NCBI GenBank assembly: GCA_017448905.1
Contig: JAFSKP010000148.1
Span: forward strand, 1-55,204
Reading direction: 5' to 3'
Source: Bacteroidales bacterium
GTDB lineage: Bacteria > Bacteroidota > Bacteroidia > Bacteroidales > P3
DNA: 55,204 bases
The notes below the pieces were generated by a model. The model had not been told where the DNA came from. It made no database searches and saw nothing but the letters and a program-made list of their open reading frames with translations. Positions 14,369 through 23,568 of the stretch are shown one piece after another. The stretch's first letter is position 1; each line of letters opens with the position of its first letter. Position numbers and translations under genes: made by a program.

Positions 14369-16360
14369 CTACTTCAGGAAGGTCTCGTAATAGTCGAACA
14401 TTTTCTTGAAGAGGTGGCGGCGTTCGAGGCCGAGGACGTTGTGCTCGTGGTGGGGATACATGAAGTAGTCCACCTGCTTGTAGTTGTTGATGCAACGTTC
14501 GATGAACTCGGTGCTGTGCTGCGGCACCACAGTGTTGTCCTCCGCACCCTGGATGACCAGCAGGTGGCCTTCAAGGTTCTGGGCTTTATTGAGAAGACTG
14601 ACTGCCTCGTAGCCGTCGGGGTTCTCCTGCGGGGTGTCCATATAGCGCTCGCCGTACATGATTTCGTACCATTTCCAGTCGATGACGGGGCCGCCGGCGC
14701 AGCCCACCTTGAAGACCTCGGGGTGTGCCAGCTTCATGGTGATGGTCATGAAGCCGCCAAAGCTCCAGCCCTCGACACCCATGCGATCCTGGTCCACATA
14801 GGGCAAAGACTTGAGGAACTTGACGCCCTCCATCTGGTCGGCCATCTCGATCTCGCCGAGGTGACGGTGGGTGCAGCTCTCAAATTCGAAGCCACGGTTG
14901 TCGGTACCACGGTTGTCGAGGGTGAAGACCACATAGCCCTGCTGCGCAAGGAACATGAAGTAGAGGTTGGCGCCGGCCAGCCAGCTGTCGGTGACGAGCT
15001 GCGAGTGGGGACCGCCATAGACGTATACCAAAGTGGGGTATTTTTGGCCACGAACCATATTGGGGGGCGTGATGAGCCTGTAGTATAGGTCGGTGACGCC
15101 ATCGGCGGCCTTGATAGTGCCAAGCTCGATGTCGGGCATGGCATAGCCGTTCAGAGGATTGGTAGCCTTGTAGAAGTTGTGCGAATTGTGGTTGTACGAC
15201 TTGTTGATGTTGTATACATAGTTGGCCTCGCCGGGGTTGTCGACAGAGTTGAACACGTCGACCATGCAGGTGCCAGCCTCGTTGATGATGACAGTGTGTG
15301 TCCCTTCCACGGCATTGTAGTTTGTGAGACATTCCATCGTGCCCTTTTTCAGGTTTACACGATAGACATCACGTCCGGCGAGGTTGTTCTTGTTGGCATA
15401 GACGAAGATGTTCTCGCCCTTTTTGTCGAACTGGATGAAGCCTTCCACCTCGTATTCGCCGGAGGTCAGCTGTTTGGCAAGGGTCCCGTCGAGGTTGTAA
15501 AGATAGAGATGCTTGTAGCCGTCGCGCATCGAGAACCAGAGAAACTTGTCACCCCGTGGAGTGAAAATCATTGGTTCGCAAGGCTCCACATAGCGAGGAT
15601 TCTCTTCCTCGAAGAGAACCTTCATGAAAGTACCGTTGACAGCATCGTACTGTTCGAGCCACATGTGGTTCTGCTCGCGGTTGATTTTGGCGATAAAGAT
15701 ATAGTTCTCGTCAGGGCTCCAAGCGATGTTGGTGAGGTACATCTCGCGCTCATGGACGGTGGTGTCGCGACGCGTGTCGAGGTAGACAAGACGCTCACGG
15801 TGAGTGTCCCAGATGCCGACGGTCACCTCATGGCTCTTCATGCCTGCCATGGGATACTTGATAGGCTTAAGCTCCGCCTCGCGAGCCTTGGTGTTGACGA
15901 GGGGGTAGTCGACCACCATGCTCTGGTCCATGCGGTAGAAAGCCAGCCTGGACTTGTTCGGGGACCAGAAGAGTCCGCCTTCTATGCCGAACTCGTTGCG
16001 GTGCACGCTCTCGCCGAGGACGATGTTGTAGCCGTCGCCGCGCTCCACCAGCTTGCCGTCGACATAGAGGTTGCCGTCTTTCTTTTCCACACGCTCTTTC
16101 TTATCAGGTCTGACGATGCCCTTGAACTGGTCGCGTTCCGCAGCGGTCATGGCACGTTCCTCTTTGCCGTCAAAGAGCATGTAGGCGGTGTCCTTTAGGT
16201 ACATCACCTTGTCGGTACCAGGCACGAAAGTGAATCCGCGCATCGCACGCTGCGGATAGAGACTGCGGTCCATCAGCTGTTCCCAACTCAGCAGCTTGCC
16301 TTGCGCCATCGCGGTACCCATGCTTAGCAGCACCGCCACAATCGTTAGAATCTTCTTCAT
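14369..16360 (-). CDS. S9 family prolyl di/tripeptidyl peptidase
   Basis: 663 residues with a signal peptide (MKKILTIVAVLLSMGTAMAQ). Residues about 40-400 form the propeller domain. Residues about 410-663 are the alpha/beta hydrolase domain. Ser533 lies in GWSFGGF, Asp608 in QGAEDNTVV and His640 in HHEHNVLG. The spacings of 75 and 107 residues are the same as in P. gingivalis PtpA (Ser603, Asp678, His710). The MYGERY motif after the nucleophile is also PtpA-like. It likely releases Xaa-Pro di- or tripeptides from peptides in the periplasm, feeding amino-acid fermentation. Which of the DPP-IV or PtpA specificities applies is undecided. Confidence 0.9.
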   Translation of the reverse strand: MKKILTIVAVLLSMGTAMAQGKLLSWEQLMDRSLYPQRAMRGFTFVPGTDKVMYLKDTAYMLFDGKEERAMTAAERDQFKGIVRPDKKERVEKKDGNLYVDGKLVERGDGYNIVLGESVHRNEFGIEGGLFWSPNKSRLAFYRMDQSMVVDYPLVNTKAREAELKPIKYPMAGMKSHEVTVGIWDTHRERLVYLDTRRDTTVHEREMYLTNIAWSPDENYIFIAKINREQNHMWLEQYDAVNGTFMKVLFEEENPRYVEPCEPMIFTPRGDKFLWFSMRDGYKHLYLYNLDGTLAKQLTSGEYEVEGFIQFDKKGENIFVYANKNNLAGRDVYRVNLKKGTMECLTNYNAVEGTHTVIINEAGTCMVDVFNSVDNPGEANYVYNINKSYNHNSHNFYKATNPLNGYAMPDIELGTIKAADGVTDLYYRLITPPNMVRGQKYPTLVYVYGGPHSQLVTDSWLAGANLYFMFLAQQGYVVFTLDNRGTDNRGFEFESCTHRHLGEIEMADQMEGVKFLKSLPYVDQDRMGVEGWSFGGFMTITMKLAHPEVFKVGCAGGPVIDWKWYEIMYGERYMDTPQENPDGYEAVSLLNKAQNLEGHLLVIQGAEDNTVVPQHSTEFIERCINNYKQVDYFMYPHHEHNVLGLERRHLFKKMFDYYETFLK

Positions 16361-17300: not shown

Positions 17301-18104
17301 TTATTTTTTAAACAACCTTAACAATAGCCATCCGAGGGTCACACCCATGAAGTTAGCGACGAGGTCGTTGATGTCGAAACCGCGATAGGGAAGCAGGTAC
17401 TGCACCGTCTCAGTGACAGTGCCTATAAGGGCTGCTGCCAGCAGAAGCGCAACGCCAGTCCGGGAAGCTCTCTGGCGGAACACCCTAAAATCGCAAAGGG
17501 AAAAAGTGCAAGGGATATAGACCGAAGCGTGCAGGAGGTGGTCGAATCGGATACCAAGGACGAAATTGTCGAGCGGCACACCGACGAACCCCATGGGAGC
17601 CCACATCAGAACGAGAAGGGCCACGAAGTAGACCCAGCGCATCCAGCGGCGGCGACGTAGGGGGAAGAGAGAACGGAGAGCGTTGACGAACGAGCGGCGG
17701 CAGACAACATGGCGCGAACGGCATCGCCACAGGAGCGAACTGCAATCGACGAAACTTCCATCAGCATGTTCGACAGCCTTGAGGCGTGCCATAACATCGG
17801 AGCGTCCGATCCTTTCAGTTGTTTCACAGTTGTCGCCGCGAAAGATGAGCGTATCGCCGTCAACCTTCAGCAGCCGATGGATGACACATTGCCCACGAAA
17901 GAAGAAGAGATAGACATCGCCCACATTCAAAGAAGGCGGCAGAGGTTCGAGGTGGATGATGTCGGTGTCGCCATCGATGAGTGGCTTCATGCTGCTGCCA
18001 CCGAAAGCGATGCGGACAGTATGCCCCTCGTCAAGGCGTCGGCGCATCTCGGCGACGACGAAACCATCGGCCGTATTGGGTAAAACAGTACGTTGTTCAG
18101 ACAT
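17301..18104 (-). CDS. S26-type signal peptidase fused to a VanZ-like domain
   Basis: 267 residues from ATG 18104, whose start lies inside the end of the HPr-kinase-like gene (8-nt overlap). Residues 1-120 match S24/S26 peptidases. GSSMKP carries the candidate nucleophile Ser38. VIHR offers His76 where bacterial LepB has Lys, as in ER/SipW-type enzymes. RGDN (89-92) is the late conserved box. Residues 154-264 are membrane-embedded and VanZ-like: RFDHLLH, then TETVQ (Glu232, Gln235), then YRGFDINDLVANFMG. A single polypeptide combining these two domains is unusual. The partner genes suggest a peptide maturation or envelope role, but substrate and product are unknown. Confidence 0.85.
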   Translation of the reverse strand: MSEQRTVLPNTADGFVVAEMRRRLDEGHTVRIAFGGSSMKPLIDGDTDIIHLEPLPPSLNVGDVYLFFFRGQCVIHRLLKVDGDTLIFRGDNCETTERIGRSDVMARLKAVEHADGSFVDCSSLLWRCRSRHVVCRRSFVNALRSLFPLRRRRWMRWVYFVALLVLMWAPMGFVGVPLDNFVLGIRFDHLLHASVYIPCTFSLCDFRVFRQRASRTGVALLLAAALIGTVTETVQYLLPYRGFDINDLVANFMGVTLGWLLLRLFKK

Positions 18105-19020
18105 CGTGAGATAGGAAAACAGTGTTGTGACATAGACGGGCCGCTTCGGCATCAGGGCGACACTGGAGGTGGTAGACCGGCACTGCCGAGATGACTGCCG
18201 AAGCTGTACGGATGAGATAGTCGGAGAAGTAGGCATCCTGCGCCAAAGCAGGCGGAAGAGAGGGCTGGATGGCGGCGAAGGCCTCAGGCACCGTGAGGCG
18301 GCGTATGGTGTTGTGGGAAGCCTGCGACAGCCTGACGACGGCTGCGAGAGGGAAAGAACGTGGCACGTGGCATGGCGTCTTGCCGCTCCACGGTGTGCCA
18401 TGGACAAGCACGCCGTCAAGGCCGATTGAAGGCGCAGCCTGGACACCATGGTGCATGGCGCAGACCTCGACAAGCGGGCTGTCGTCGTTGAGCAGACGAC
18501 AGTCATCAATATTCTGGAGCCAAAGGCGCGAGTGGGTGCTCTTGCCTGTACCCGACTCGCCAAGGAAAAGCACTGCACGACCGTCGCACACCACAGCGGA
18601 AGCATGGACGAAGCAGCACAAAGAGGGCACAAAGAGCATACTTACGGCAAACCAGAGCGAGAAACGCAGGATACAGGGGTCGATGGCTGACGTGGCCTCC
18701 ACCTTGCCGCCACCACGTCTGTGACGCATCTGAAGCAACGGGCTGGCATCGCTTGAATACATGGAATAGATGTATTCATCTCCACAGAGATGGAGTGTGC
18801 ACTGGCCATTTGTCTCGCCGAGTACCAAACTGCTGAGAAGCTCGGAATGGGCAGGGACAGGTGGAAGCTGGCAGCCGTAGCGGACACTCCACTGCGGCTT
18901 GCCAGATGTCGCAAAACGGGCAAAAGCAGGGTGACCGGCAAAAAAAAGGCTTTCCGGACCTTCGACTGCCACGGCATGACCGCCCACAGAGAATAAGAAG
19001 GGTCCCCGGACTGCATTCAT
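18097..19020 (-). CDS. HPr kinase-like protein (HprK-related)
   Basis: 307 residues. The C-terminal half holds the HPr-kinase-type P-loop: FVHASAVV precedes GESGTGKS (154-161), followed by LLNDDSP (178-182) and the HGTPWSGK loop. The N-terminal 130 residues are poorly conserved and hold no HPr-binding domain typical of true HprK. Such HprK-related proteins occur beside PqqD-like proteins in exopolysaccharide/exosortase and lasso-peptide-like loci (family knowledge). Their substrate is mostly unknown. The start overlaps the PqqD-like stop by ATGA and the stop overlaps the peptidase start, so the three are translationally coupled. Confidence 0.87.
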   Translation of the reverse strand: MNAVRGPFLFSVGGHAVAVEGPESLFFAGHPAFARFATSGKPQWSVRYGCQLPPVPAHSELLSSLVLGETNGQCTLHLCGDEYIYSMYSSDASPLLQMRHRRGGGKVEATSAIDPCILRFSLWFAVSMLFVPSLCCFVHASAVVCDGRAVLFLGESGTGKSTHSRLWLQNIDDCRLLNDDSPLVEVCAMHHGVQAAPSIGLDGVLVHGTPWSGKTPCHVPRSFPLAAVVRLSQASHNTIRRLTVPEAFAAIQPSLPPALAQDAYFSDYLIRTASAVISAVPVYHLQCRPDAEAARLCHNTVFLSHDV

Positions 19021-19286
19021 GGCTCGAGGATATTATTCTGCTGCAGCATACCGACCCACTTGAGGGCATCAGCAGAAGCGGTGGCATTATCCACCTCGTA
19101 GTTATCGACAAGCAGACGGGTCACGTCGTCAGGAACAAAATCACGTCCCTCAAGCCTGTTCCACAGAAAGAGAGATGTGTCGTTCAGCGCAATGACCGTG
19201 GTCATGTCACCCGGATTCCGCCCTTGGATGAGAACAATGTTCTCGTCGGCGACATTATGTACTTTATATTTTGACGATATTCGCAT
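19017..19286 (-). CDS. PqqD-family peptide-binding protein
   Basis: 89 residues. The pattern IALNDTSLFLWNRLEG, then a charged helix (VTRLLVDNYEV) and the closing ALKWVGMLQQNNIL, is that of PqqD-like winged-helix domains. In RiPP pathways these bind leader peptides for modifying enzymes. No radical SAM enzyme, cyclase or obvious precursor peptide is adjacent, so a classical RiPP cluster is not shown. It is coupled by a 4-nt overlap to the HPr-kinase-like gene. Confidence 0.87.
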   Translation of the reverse strand: MRISSKYKVHNVADENIVLIQGRNPGDMTTVIALNDTSLFLWNRLEGRDFVPDDVTRLLVDNYEVDNATASADALKWVGMLQQNNILEP

Positions 19287-19343
19287 GTTTAGAACTGACT
19301 TTTCACCGCCTCACACATAGTCACAAACAGGGAACCGTAGCAT

Positions 19344-19934
19344 TCAAAAAGCAACACCAAGCCGGAAGCCGGCGGTAACTGCGAGGATACTCCTCGGAGG
19401 AAGGAGCATGAAACTATGGAAATAGTTGTTGGCATTGCCACTGCCGACAGAAGGTCCAAGGCCGGCATAAATGTCAAATACAAACCAGTCGAGCACAAGC
19501 TGGTATCCGAGTTCGCCAAGCAGGGCATACTGATAGGTGTCTTTACAGAAGACCTCGCCTGAGGGGTGATATTCGAAATGCGTCGCAACGAGTTCAAGTT
19601 TCAAATAGCGGCCTGCGAGCCAACTGTCGGAAGTACGTTGAGGACGGCGTCTCCATTTGTAGGCGATCTTGACAAGCAAACCCTCCGGGTCGCTTTCGTT
19701 CATCCAGTCCCAACCCAGGCCAATGGCACCGAGCGTGAATTCGGCACTGTTCTTTGGATTGAATGCCCGCTCGTATGTGAGACGTGTAGAGCCGCTCCCC
19801 AATGAGAGGAGAGTGAACTTGAAATCATTGCAAGTCGGCATATTCTGACGCTCGTTTTGCCCCGACGATATTGACGGTACTGACAATGCAACAGCCATGA
19901 AAAGCACTGGCAACAGTCTATGTATCAACGACAT
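19344..19934 (-). CDS. Small outer-membrane beta-barrel-like protein
   Basis: 196 residues with signal peptide (LLPVLFMAVALSVPSISSGQ). The remainder is amphipathic beta-strand-like with aromatic strand ends (RLTYERAFNPKNSAEFTLGAIG, YQLVLDWFVFDIYAGLGPSVG), ending FRLGVAF with a terminal Phe as in outer-membrane barrels. It resembles DUF3575-type porin-like proteins, but that assignment is tentative. It is the first gene of the four-gene minus-strand unit, 57 nt before the PqqD-like gene, with a consensus promoter 30 nt upstream. Confidence 0.75.
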   Translation of the reverse strand: MSLIHRLLPVLFMAVALSVPSISSGQNERQNMPTCNDFKFTLLSLGSGSTRLTYERAFNPKNSAEFTLGAIGLGWDWMNESDPEGLLVKIAYKWRRRPQRTSDSWLAGRYLKLELVATHFEYHPSGEVFCKDTYQYALLGELGYQLVLDWFVFDIYAGLGPSVGSGNANNYFHSFMLLPPRSILAVTAGFRLGVAF

Positions 19935-19963: not shown

Positions 19964-19994
19964 CAAAAATACATTTTTTTAGCCAGTCCACAAA
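19964..19994 (-). promoter_or_regulatory. Promoter of the OMP-PqqD-HprK-S26 unit
   Basis: On the minus strand TTTG (19991-19994), 19 nt, then TATTTTTG (19964-19971): a full consensus match. Transcripts would start near 19957 and include all four genes down to 17301. It overlaps the divergent purM promoter region. Confidence 0.85.
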
Positions 19995-22500: not shown

Positions 22501-23568
22501 TTAGAACTTGAAGGTTACGCCGAAAGCATGAGTGCCTTTAAGGTTAACAGCTGTGCGATAGGAGTAGTCGACAGAGAGACTGCGGCTGCCATCATCCTTG
22601 AAAGGGATGATGAAAGAGGCGCCGGCAGAAAGACCGGTATTGGCAGTCACACGGTTATCGCTGTCGAAGATGTCGGTCTGATAGAGGTAAGCCGCGCGAG
22701 CCTGGAAACGGTCGAGCAAGGAGTACTCAAAACCAAGGCCGAAATTGTCGCGGAGGAAAGCGTTGGAAGTGAAGTTCCCGGCAATGGTGAGACGCTGGTT
22801 CCATTTCTCGAACAAGAAGTCGTAGGAAGCTCCGATGTTGAGAAGGGTGGGAAGCTCCATCTCGGAGGCACGATACTCGACAGTCATCGAGTTGCCAGCC
22901 TTGTTGACGGTTGTGAAAGCCATACCCGTTCCGTTAAAACTAAGGGCAGGTCCGATATTCTTGAGCGAGATACCGAACTTGAGTTCATCGTTCTCACCGG
23001 TCTGGTACTGGATACCGGCATCGATAGCCACACCTGTAGCGCTGACGTTGTCGGTTGATTCAGTGATAACCTTAATCACGGCGCCGCCATGAATGGAGTT
23101 GGTGAAAGAATAGGAATAGGCCACGTTGAGGTTCATCAATGACGGCGAGATGTAGCCATTACTTCCGGGTTCAGGACTCTCGACGGTGGTGACTGGTATG
23201 TCGCCGAAGCCCATGGTCATGACGTATGCGCCAAGGACACCAGCCTCGCCCAGACGGAGTGCAAGGCCGAAAGCGTTGACCGAAGCGCCGCTGTTGAGGC
23301 CTGAACGTCCACCGTTGAGGATTGCATGTGAGTAAACGAACTCATATTTTTCCACAAAAGAAAGACCTGCAATGTTGCTGTAAAAAGCATCGATGCCACG
23401 GGCACAGGCAGTGTTGATGCCGCCCCAGCTGGAGCTGCGTGCCCATGGATTGATGAGAAGCTCTGTAGCGCCTGCCGTTCCCCGACGGTTGTCGTTGCCG
23501 GCAAATGCAGGAGCCGTCATCGACACTGTAAGGACCAATACAGTCAGTATGCTTAATATTCTTTTCAT
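22501..23568 (-). CDS. PorV/PorQ-family outer-membrane protein
   Basis: 355 residues with signal peptide (MKRILSILTVLVLTVSMTAPAFA). Early motif GATELLINPWARSSS, then FYSNIAGLSF and repeated beta-strand pairs to the last residues GTHAFGVTFKF, which end in Phe. This is the pattern of the PorV/PorQ family (FadL-like barrels; in T9SS, PorV shuttles cargo to the sortase). Which branch it belongs to is not decided. It is the third gene of a TonB receptor/giant protein/PorV-like unit, only 32 nt after the giant gene, and so may be a dedicated partner rather than the general T9SS PorV. Confidence 0.85.
   Translation of the reverse strand: MKRILSILTVLVLTVSMTAPAFAGNDNRRGTAGATELLINPWARSSSWGGINTACARGIDAFYSNIAGLSFVEKYEFVYSHAILNGGRSGLNSGASVNAFGLALRLGEAGVLGAYVMTMGFGDIPVTTVESPEPGSNGYISPSLMNLNVAYSYSFTNSIHGGAVIKVITESTDNVSATGVAIDAGIQYQTGENDELKFGISLKNIGPALSFNGTGMAFTTVNKAGNSMTVEYRASEMELPTLLNIGASYDFLFEKWNQRLTIAGNFTSNAFLRDNFGLGFEYSLLDRFQARAAYLYQTDIFDSDNRVTANTGLSAGASFIIPFKDDGSRSLSVDYSYRTAVNLKGTHAFGVTFKF

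Follow-up and report, generated by a model that had tools for sequence, protein, structure and literature searches.

What do four closely spaced genes on the minus strand of a Bacteroidales contig make, and from which substrate? These genes occupy positions 17301 to 19934 of contig JAFSKP010000148.1 (assembly GCA_017448905.1), whose 55,204 nucleotides were analysed as a whole and are called the window below. Genomes, loci and contigs are labelled G, L and C, the window's own genome being G000 and its contig C135. A first-pass annotation had presented the genes as a candidate undescribed cassette encoding an outer membrane protein (OMP), a PqqD-like protein, an HPr-kinase-like protein and an S26-VanZ protein, acting on a leader-bearing peptide encoded elsewhere. 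Our analysis indicates that the PqqD protein, the HprK-like kinase and the S26-VanZ protein are in all probability a trans-acting hub of Bacteroidales, similar to the LPP pathway, for the maturation of ribosomally synthesized and post-translationally modified peptides (RiPPs).

The LPP (linear polyphosphorylated peptide) pathway of Bacillota, cited here from part of the paper (Popov et al., Nat Commun 2026, PMC13381572), includes a RiPP recognition element (RRE), LppB, an HprK-like protein, LppK, a SipW-like signal peptidase, LppS, a nucleoside triphosphate (NTP) transferase, LppN, an MsbA-like protein, LppD, and the precursor LppA. Its chemistry has been demonstrated for LppB, LppK and LppS. 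The precursors carry the motif YxxPxVLxHQxIxFETxxS, their leader is cut after Thr-1 and Ser3 of the core is polyphosphorylated. LppS requires LppB, and Tyr-16 and Pro-13 of the leader matter for binding. According to the part of the paper used here, LPPs are confined to Bacillota, where their distribution is patchy, and their role is unknown. Since this similar enzyme set was published in 2026, the label "undescribed" given to the cassette no longer holds.

The coordinates agree with the gene organization proposed initially, including the two overlaps. The gene of a 196-aa protein (19344..19934) is followed, after a gap of 57 nt, by the PqqD gene (19017..19286, 89 aa), which overlaps by 4 nt (19017-19020) the kinase gene (18097..19020, 307 aa). 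The latter overlaps by 8 nt (18097-18104) the gene of a 267-aa S26-VanZ fusion protein (17301..18104), whose ATG is located at 18104; the 443-aa version given by the open reading frame (ORF) lister begins earlier, at a TTG. Relatives of these genes might have been scattered and never adjacent in other genomes, a possibility raised by the first-pass annotation. On the contrary, the PqqD, HprK and S26-VanZ genes are contiguous in 30 of 36 surveyed loci (the window, 33 loci from its genus and 2 from other families). The six others are two order-level loci with another layout (L053 and L063), one locus truncated by the contig end (L045) and three loci from two genomes with a lone kinase or a rearranged cassette (L062, L064 and L065). 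The solitary HprK-like genes L062:9154-10035 and L064:9411-10358 (genomes G031 and G016 of the genus) have no adjoining PqqD or S26 gene. The 196-aa gene is found only in the window and its closest relatives (L031-L033), i.e. 4 of the 36 loci, several of the others having little upstream DNA. Hence, the conserved system consists of the last three genes and the first one is a local neighbor. As its product matches no Pfam or NCBIfam family, neither the OMP label nor the role attributed to a barrel part is supported.

The identities of the enzymes are well supported at the sequence level. The PqqD label is confirmed by Pfam (E=1.6e-11), and the family profile matches the RRE of a lasso peptide system, TfuB1 (6jx3, E=1.2e-6), which is the nearest solved relative. 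The protein is therefore predicted to be an RRE-type leader-peptide binder. Its residues N35, Y63 and D73 are invariant in 20 sequences, and the D73/N35 spacing is 38 against 37 for D70/N33, which hold the leader Tyr and Pro in LppB, as compared by residue numbers without an LppB alignment. The HprK label draws on both profile scores and motifs. Matches of the kinase to the NCBIfam models ScmC (TIGR04249, E=1.5e-6) and HprK_rel_A (E=0.005) are far under the cut-offs, and the top PDB match of the family profile is a PEP carboxykinase (PEPCK-type P-loop, E=0.003). Alignments of 21 and 42 rows show the conservation of H139, GESGTGKSTH (154-163), NDD (178-180) and GxPWSGK (208-214), with E155 nearly invariant in the larger one; we take these motifs to be of HprK type. 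The weak profile matches and the invariant motifs together suggest an HprK-like protein, predicted to be a peptide-serine kinase.

Neither Pfam nor NCBIfam gives an S26 match with the window protein alone, and the S26 label is supported through family profiles. The NCBIfam model TIGR02228 (archaeal-type signal peptidase I) is matched by 17 of 23 family members (best E=7.4e-14) and the SipW model by 5 of 23, the window protein not being among them, while the family profile matches SEC11C in the PDB (E=2.6e-6). Residues S38, M39, P41, H76, R77, G90, D91 and E97 are invariant. This archaeal/SipW-type domain, a predicted leader peptidase, lies at 17730..18104 (approximate limits). The VanZ label also holds: the lipocone membrane domain fused to S26 (17301..17642, approximate start) matches Pfam VanZ over residues 198-266 (E=2e-9), and R186, D188, H192, E232xxQ235, R241, D244, D247 and N251 are invariant in 23 sequences. 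Profiles were needed for PDB comparisons of the HprK and S26-VanZ proteins, single-sequence searches yielding chance matches only.

Which peptides could be the substrates? A first motif search among small peptides gave 45 rows, 10 of them in a fixed-leader family, the remainder being judged by eye to be chance. The peptide that recurs among small ORFs near order-level cassettes has the form Y-x-x-P-x-h-x-V-...-E-x-G-F-x-x-S followed by an acidic tail. A profile of 10 peptides located near such cassettes (A4), run on 61 genomes, revealed the family scattered across the window's genus, with up to 23 matches per genome and a best E-value of 8.3e-5 in the window's genome. Among 24 order-level genomes, 19 had no match and three had one match near E=0.5. 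The family was present in the two others, G044 (best 1.5e-8 among 12 matches at E<=1) and G055 (3 matches, best 5.1e-16; this genome contributed to the profile), and it is in these two, among the order-level genomes, that HprK gave a clear match. Furthermore, precursors are found beside or within about 2 kb of the cassettes in the order-level loci L063, L113, L127 and L139. With a second profile of 27 peptides (A5), two clear precursors were found in the window's own genome, one at C151:59356-59544, itself a member of the profile, and the other at C35:27075-27260 (E=4.2e-8, non-member); two further matches had E>0.3 and none was located on the window's contig. Thus, the search of the genome for co-occurring small ORFs or leaders suggested in the first-pass annotation was productive, and the co-occurrence of an RRE-type YxxP-leader family argues for its proposal that the PqqD protein, the kinase and the S26 domain would act on a leader-bearing peptide encoded elsewhere.

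The family is well supported by its sequences. After removal of one match without the motif (L201) and merging of duplicates, 102 matches gave 96 distinct peptides, which come from the loci fetched for part of the matches (90 from the genus and 6 from G044 and G055). Column counts rely on the 94 peptides in register, one peptide with a one-residue deletion and one that was mis-anchored being set aside. In the leader Y-x2-P-x9-E-x-G-[FY]-x2-[ST], Y1, P4, E14, G16 and F/Y17 are each present in 94/94 peptides, under an anchoring pattern that demanded P and G and restricted Y, E and F/Y. Residue 20, left unconstrained by this pattern, is Ser in 90 peptides and Thr in 4. Core columns are far less conserved than those of the leader. 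The cores after this Ser are 15-61 aa long (median 29) and acidic (17% acidic versus 3% basic residues), and 87 of the 94 peptides have an aromatic residue among the last four. A hydrophobic signal segment was found in none of the 96 precursors; therefore, cutting by S26 would need guidance by the RRE. Seven peptides searched against Pfam and NCBIfam belong to no family, the single match being to the paeninodin-lasso model NF033524 (E=0.68).

Kinase and peptides largely occur in the same genomes. Among 99 genomes of the genus, 90 have peptides and 87 have HprK. In the 53 near-complete ones (completeness of 90% or more, contamination of 5% or less), kinase and peptides coincide without exception, 48 genomes having both and five having neither (G014, G336, G339, G374 and G385). 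The enzymes are mostly single: HprK is single-copy in 85 of 87 genomes, and PqqD gives exactly one match in 83 of the 99 genomes, two in 6 and none in 10. Genomes of the genus that have peptides carry 1-23 of them; G021, for instance, has 23 for a single HprK and a single PqqD. Therefore, one RRE must serve many precursors. At the level of the order, 295 Bacteroidales genomes were screened with thresholds of E<=1e-15 for HprK and E<=1e-3 for peptides. HprK was found in 25 genomes and peptides in 11, i.e. both in 9, HprK only in 16, peptides only in 2 and neither in 268 (Fisher p=2.5e-9). When the window's genus and the genomes that contributed to the profile are left out, these counts become 5, 16, 2 and 268 (p=2.3e-5, uncorrected for relatedness). 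Neither kinase nor peptides were found in the sister genus, represented by three genomes (G112, G201 and G275).

In most cases (67/96), a lipoprotein gene comes immediately after the precursor gene. Allowing a start from 40 nt ahead of the precursor end to 90 nt past it, we found an ORF of 150 aa or more on the same strand for 68 of the 96 precursors; 64 of these ORFs have a lipoprotein start by rule and 3 by eye, the last one being the HprK gene of Dysgonomonas sp. 511. The background frequency of lipoprotein starts, 43/386, was obtained from longest starts, whereas the pair test, which considered every start within 130 nt, is more lenient. The other 28 precursors have no such ORF directly behind them, in some cases owing to the locus end. 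Among the 68 downstream proteins, 65 form one blastp cluster. The best PDB matches of a profile built from 14 of these lipoproteins (two of them from order-level loci, one of which itself matches Mfa_like_1) are BACOVA_04980 (E=0.006) and the fimbrial protein BF1861 (E=0.018). Because only 2 of the 14 match Mfa_like_1, a fimbrillin-like fold is proposed tentatively. In the window's own genome, the C151 precursor gene shares 4 nt with the end of the gene ahead of it, whose 2594-aa product carries a sorting tail for type IX secretion (locus L182:79-8048; Pfam Por_Secre_tail, E=1e-7), and lies about 50 nt before a lipoprotein gene.

Closely similar precursor-lipoprotein modules are found in tandem in L250:1674-5523 (three copies) and L224:1741-3721 (two copies), which suggests recent duplication. 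In addition, four precursors (L177:1501-1686, L165:1420-1578, L173:366-593 and L175:1498-1686) share the core C-terminus AS-x-[YF]...W-x-W and are not directly followed by a lipoprotein gene. The C35 precursor of the window's genome, which sits behind mazG, is a member of this set.

How far does the enzyme set extend? The best 80 of at least 546 stretches encoding relatives of the kinase provided 79 loci, whose ORFs were scanned with profiles. All titles but one ("bacterium P3") name Bacteroidota taxa, including uncultured Bacteroidales, Alistipes, Bacteroides and Dysgonomonas. Genes for S26 are found in 73 of these loci, exporters in 46, PqqD in 45, VanZ in 22 and NTP_transf_5 in 14; PqqD, NTP_transf_5, an MsbA-type exporter, HprK and S26 are all present together in 12. 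No locus combines VanZ with an exporter (VanZ only in 22 loci, exporter only in 46, both in none and neither in 11). Since the VanZ loci appear to form one lineage, these are not 22 independent events. The cassettes of the window's genus have no exporter and no nucleotidyltransferase, and their S26 domain is fused to VanZ. No MsbA-like exporter was detected in the window's cassette or in the examined DNA of the 22 VanZ-bearing loci. The NTP transferase (PF14907) is encoded twice in the window's genome, on contigs C108 and C105, and not on the window's contig.

Several relatives deserve mention. The NTP_transf_5 genes L181:7579-8655, L189:7733-8770 and L190:7157-8185 are located away from the cassette, beside genes that resemble, by eye, glycosyltransferase and polysaccharide-export genes. 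In Bacteroides oleiciplenus YIT 12058, locus L109:1747-20834 (20.8 kb, part of which is N) contains two pairs of exporter and HprK genes along with two or more precursor genes. Dysgonomonas sp. 511 (L119) likewise has precursors near its cassette, and both strains are cultured. A relative of the kinase (42.6% identity over 60% of the query) is also encoded at 14606-15115 of MT835698.1, an unannotated "Bacteriophage sp." contig from human faeces, which is either a mobile copy or mis-binned host DNA.

From these features, we infer the following biochemical steps. The scattered small precursors would present their leader, YxxPxhxVhxhxhExG[FY]xxS, to the PqqD protein, the Tyr and Pro residues docking in the groove of this RRE. 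The HprK-like kinase would then phosphorylate, perhaps repeatedly, the near-invariant Ser located 19 residues past the Tyr. The SipW-type S26 domain, to which the RRE would present the substrate, would cut the leader, most likely after the invariant Gly (Tyr +15). Counted from the leader Tyr, the Thr of LppA and this Gly are both at +15, and the phosphorylated Ser of LppA is at +18 versus +19 for the Ser found here (PMC13381572, used in part). Hence, the cut is predicted after the Gly, which would make the phospho-Ser core position 4. The VanZ domain would anchor the machine at the inner membrane and hand on or modify the product, the cassette having no exporter. Most products would finally act together with the surface lipoprotein encoded by the next gene.

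VanZ could have a more active part. It belongs to the lipocone superfamily, and VanZ families are predicted to act on the head groups of lipid carriers; for Skillet-1, a lipocone relative, joining of a conserved serine to a phospholipid is predicted (eLife 2025, PMC12419801, cited from part of its text). Combining these predictions with the putative phospho-serine substrate and the missing exporter leads to a speculative scheme, which we consider rather improbable as it stands. VanZ would attach the peptide, once cut, through the phospho-Ser made by the kinase to a lipid of the membrane or to a lipid carrier, giving anchored phospho-lipopeptides that need no exporter, in a route run by one hub for up to 23 dispersed, diversifying precursor-lipoprotein surface modules. 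The leads in this direction are the exclusion between VanZ and exporter in the 79 loci, the invariant VanZ motifs and the prediction made for Skillet-1 (PMC12419801). That VanZ simply serves to anchor the protein in the membrane is no less likely.

The same enzymes could also serve a different purpose, namely the production of bacteriocin-like antagonistic peptides whose core is the toxin and whose following lipoprotein is the immunity protein or receptor, the variable scattered copies reflecting an arms race. Lipoproteins act as immunity proteins in lantibiotic systems, and the hypervariable multi-copy cores, the tandem paralogues and the lipoprotein-type starts of 67 of the 68 close downstream genes (64 by rule and 3 by eye) would fit such a role. 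The similarity of cores is weakly correlated with that of the lipoproteins (Spearman 0.22, p=0.002), as shared module ancestry would also produce. However, bacteriocin clusters are patchy, whereas the kinase is near-universal in the genus (87/99); the lipoproteins that follow the precursors are large, reaching about 560 aa with many of them cut by the locus end, and weakly fimbrillin-like, and a small set of precursors keeps a conserved core end between species. We therefore consider antagonism possible but distinctly less probable than not. Much less credit can be given to the idea that the short genes encode no RiPP precursors and act in regulation, as leader peptides or upstream ORFs through which translation of the lipoproteins would be controlled, with an indirect link to the cassette. 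A close position ahead of a lipoprotein gene, observed for 67 of 96, is what a leader ORF would show, and 22 of 96 lie within 60 nt of a same-strand upstream gene. It is nevertheless as a protein that the leader is conserved, with an invariant 20-residue spacing and a resemblance to the RRE-binding motif of LPP and lasso peptides (PMC13381572, used in part); moreover, peptide presence tracks the kinase and 28 of 96 are not directly followed by any ORF reaching 150 aa (in some cases owing to the locus end), all of which makes this idea very unlikely. Equally hard to sustain is an envelope or polysaccharide control cassette unrelated to the peptides, in which the kinase would act on a protein, PqqD would be its structural partner and S26-VanZ a lone peptidase, the co-occurrence resulting from shared ancestry. 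Some NTP_transf_5 genes of the genus (judged by eye) and some order-level cassettes (L127 and L135) do lie among polysaccharide-like genes, and one event may account for the lack of both kinase and peptides in some members of the genus. Against this stand the association across families outside the genus (p=2.3e-5, uncorrected for relatedness), the precursors beside or within about 2 kb of the cassettes in L063, L113, L127 and L139 and the maturation of YxxP peptides by a similar enzyme set in Bacillota (PMC13381572, used in part).

The favored reading, an LPP-like maturation hub acting in trans, also has to accommodate several observations that weigh against it. Among the 99 genomes of the genus, four have peptides without HprK (G006, G034, G370 and G372) and one shows the reverse (G362); these five assemblies are all 68-83% complete. 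Among the five near-complete genomes devoid of both kinase and peptides, G336 and G374 still have a PqqD-domain match, in longer ORFs. In a purM tree of 57 chosen genomes, 7 of which have neither kinase nor peptides, the joint absence needs three changes, at least two being forced by well-supported branches, and a single origin, with these genomes in one clade, is not rejected (p-AU, approximately unbiased test, 0.556). Hence, few independent events lie behind the match at the genus level. In the order, 16 of the 25 HprK-bearing genomes have no peptide detected by the profile, and may have either diverged leaders or no such peptide, while 2 of the 11 peptide-bearing genomes (G074 and G186) have no HprK match. 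Moreover, the window's cassette lacks two components of the LPP core set, the exporter and the NTP transferase; in its genome, the two best matches to a cassette-type exporter are 27% and 35% identical. Finally, the spacing between His and Asp in the S26 domain is 15, versus 25 in LppS (PMC13381572, used in part).

As to the promoter that, in the first-pass annotation, drives the four genes, a candidate box, TTTG-N19-TATTTTTG (19964..19994, minus strand), is found by pattern match 29 nt ahead of the first start codon, and the window contains 4 such boxes versus 0.77 expected in shuffles. We take this pattern to be the Bacteroidota promoter consensus. A sigma-70 promoter scan of the window gave nothing on the relevant strand. 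Similar boxes upstream of precursors (13 of 96, versus a control rate of 2.5%) are suggestive and were not used as evidence. Elsewhere in the window, a 355-aa protein encoded at 22501-23568 on the minus strand, which by eye presumably resembles PorV/PorQ-type secretion-system proteins, adjoins a 1606-aa secreted-looking protein.

The hub would extend a RiPP pathway called Bacillota-restricted (PMC13381572, used in part) to Bacteroidales of the rumen and gut. Its layout, one maturation hub serving a dispersed precursor family and retained across most of a genus instead of having a patchy distribution, has no counterpart in the part of the LPP paper used here. Genome mining that looks for RiPP precursors beside the enzymes would miss a hub of this kind. 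Should lipidation by VanZ be true, it would provide a Ser-phosphate lipidation route to membrane-anchored phospho-lipopeptides.

How does the cassette compare with known systems? No description of it or of its peptides was found in the open-licence PMC literature (including PMC10352776, PMC12710340, PMC8498205 and PMC12419801, used in part), subscription papers and preprints being outside this scope. It shares with the SynChlorMet cassette a pair of HprK-like and PqqD-like proteins, whose best NCBIfam matches are ScmC and ScmD. However, the scores, 27.8 of 125 bits for ScmC and 18.1 of 100 bits for ScmD, are far below the curated cut-offs for membership, and no radical SAM gene was recognized by eye among the neighbors, where no profile search was made. 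As in the phosphorylated lasso peptides paeninodin and pseudomycoidin (PMC8498205, used in part), there are a discrete PqqD-type B1 protein, an HprK-like kinase, sometimes a nucleotidyltransferase and a [Y/W]xxP leader, but here the leader peptidase is an S26 protein and the predicted phospho-Ser is placed at the beginning of the core and not at its C-terminal end. Neither a lasso B2 leader protease nor an asparagine-synthase-like C cyclase was recognized in the neighboring ORFs scanned or read by eye, no dedicated profile search being made. Two motifs of the VanZ clade, ExxQ and the acidic D..D...N, are conserved in the VanZ domain (PMC12419801). It differs from the VanZ proteins of that paper, used in part, by its fusion to a RiPP-type signal peptidase, HPr, PqqD and RiPP being mentioned 0 times in the main text.

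The comparison with the LPP pathway (PMC13381572, on the part of the paper used here) is the closest one we can draw in terms of enzyme set. Both systems have a discrete RRE, an HprK-like kinase and an archaeal/SipW-type signal peptidase, precursors with a conserved YxxP N-terminus, a variable C-terminus and a Ser just past the predicted cut, and no recognized macrolactam cyclase. Because it lacks an exporter, an NTP transferase and an in-cluster precursor, the window's cassette, in which the signal peptidase is in addition fused to VanZ, is classified as an LPP-like variant and not as an LPP cluster. It belongs to another phylum, Bacteroidota, whereas LPPs are said to be confined to Bacillota, and its leader ends with ExG[FY]xxS instead of FETxxS, the Ser being one residue further. 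In its own genome, the precursors are unlinked to the cassette; they number 1-23 per genome, against 1-3 per cluster for LPPs, and the kinase is present in 87 of 99 genomes of the genus instead of being patchy. Lastly, unlike LPP precursors, those described here are paired with surface-type lipoproteins, and this pairing offers a first handle on the role of LPP-type products, left unknown in the LPP paper.

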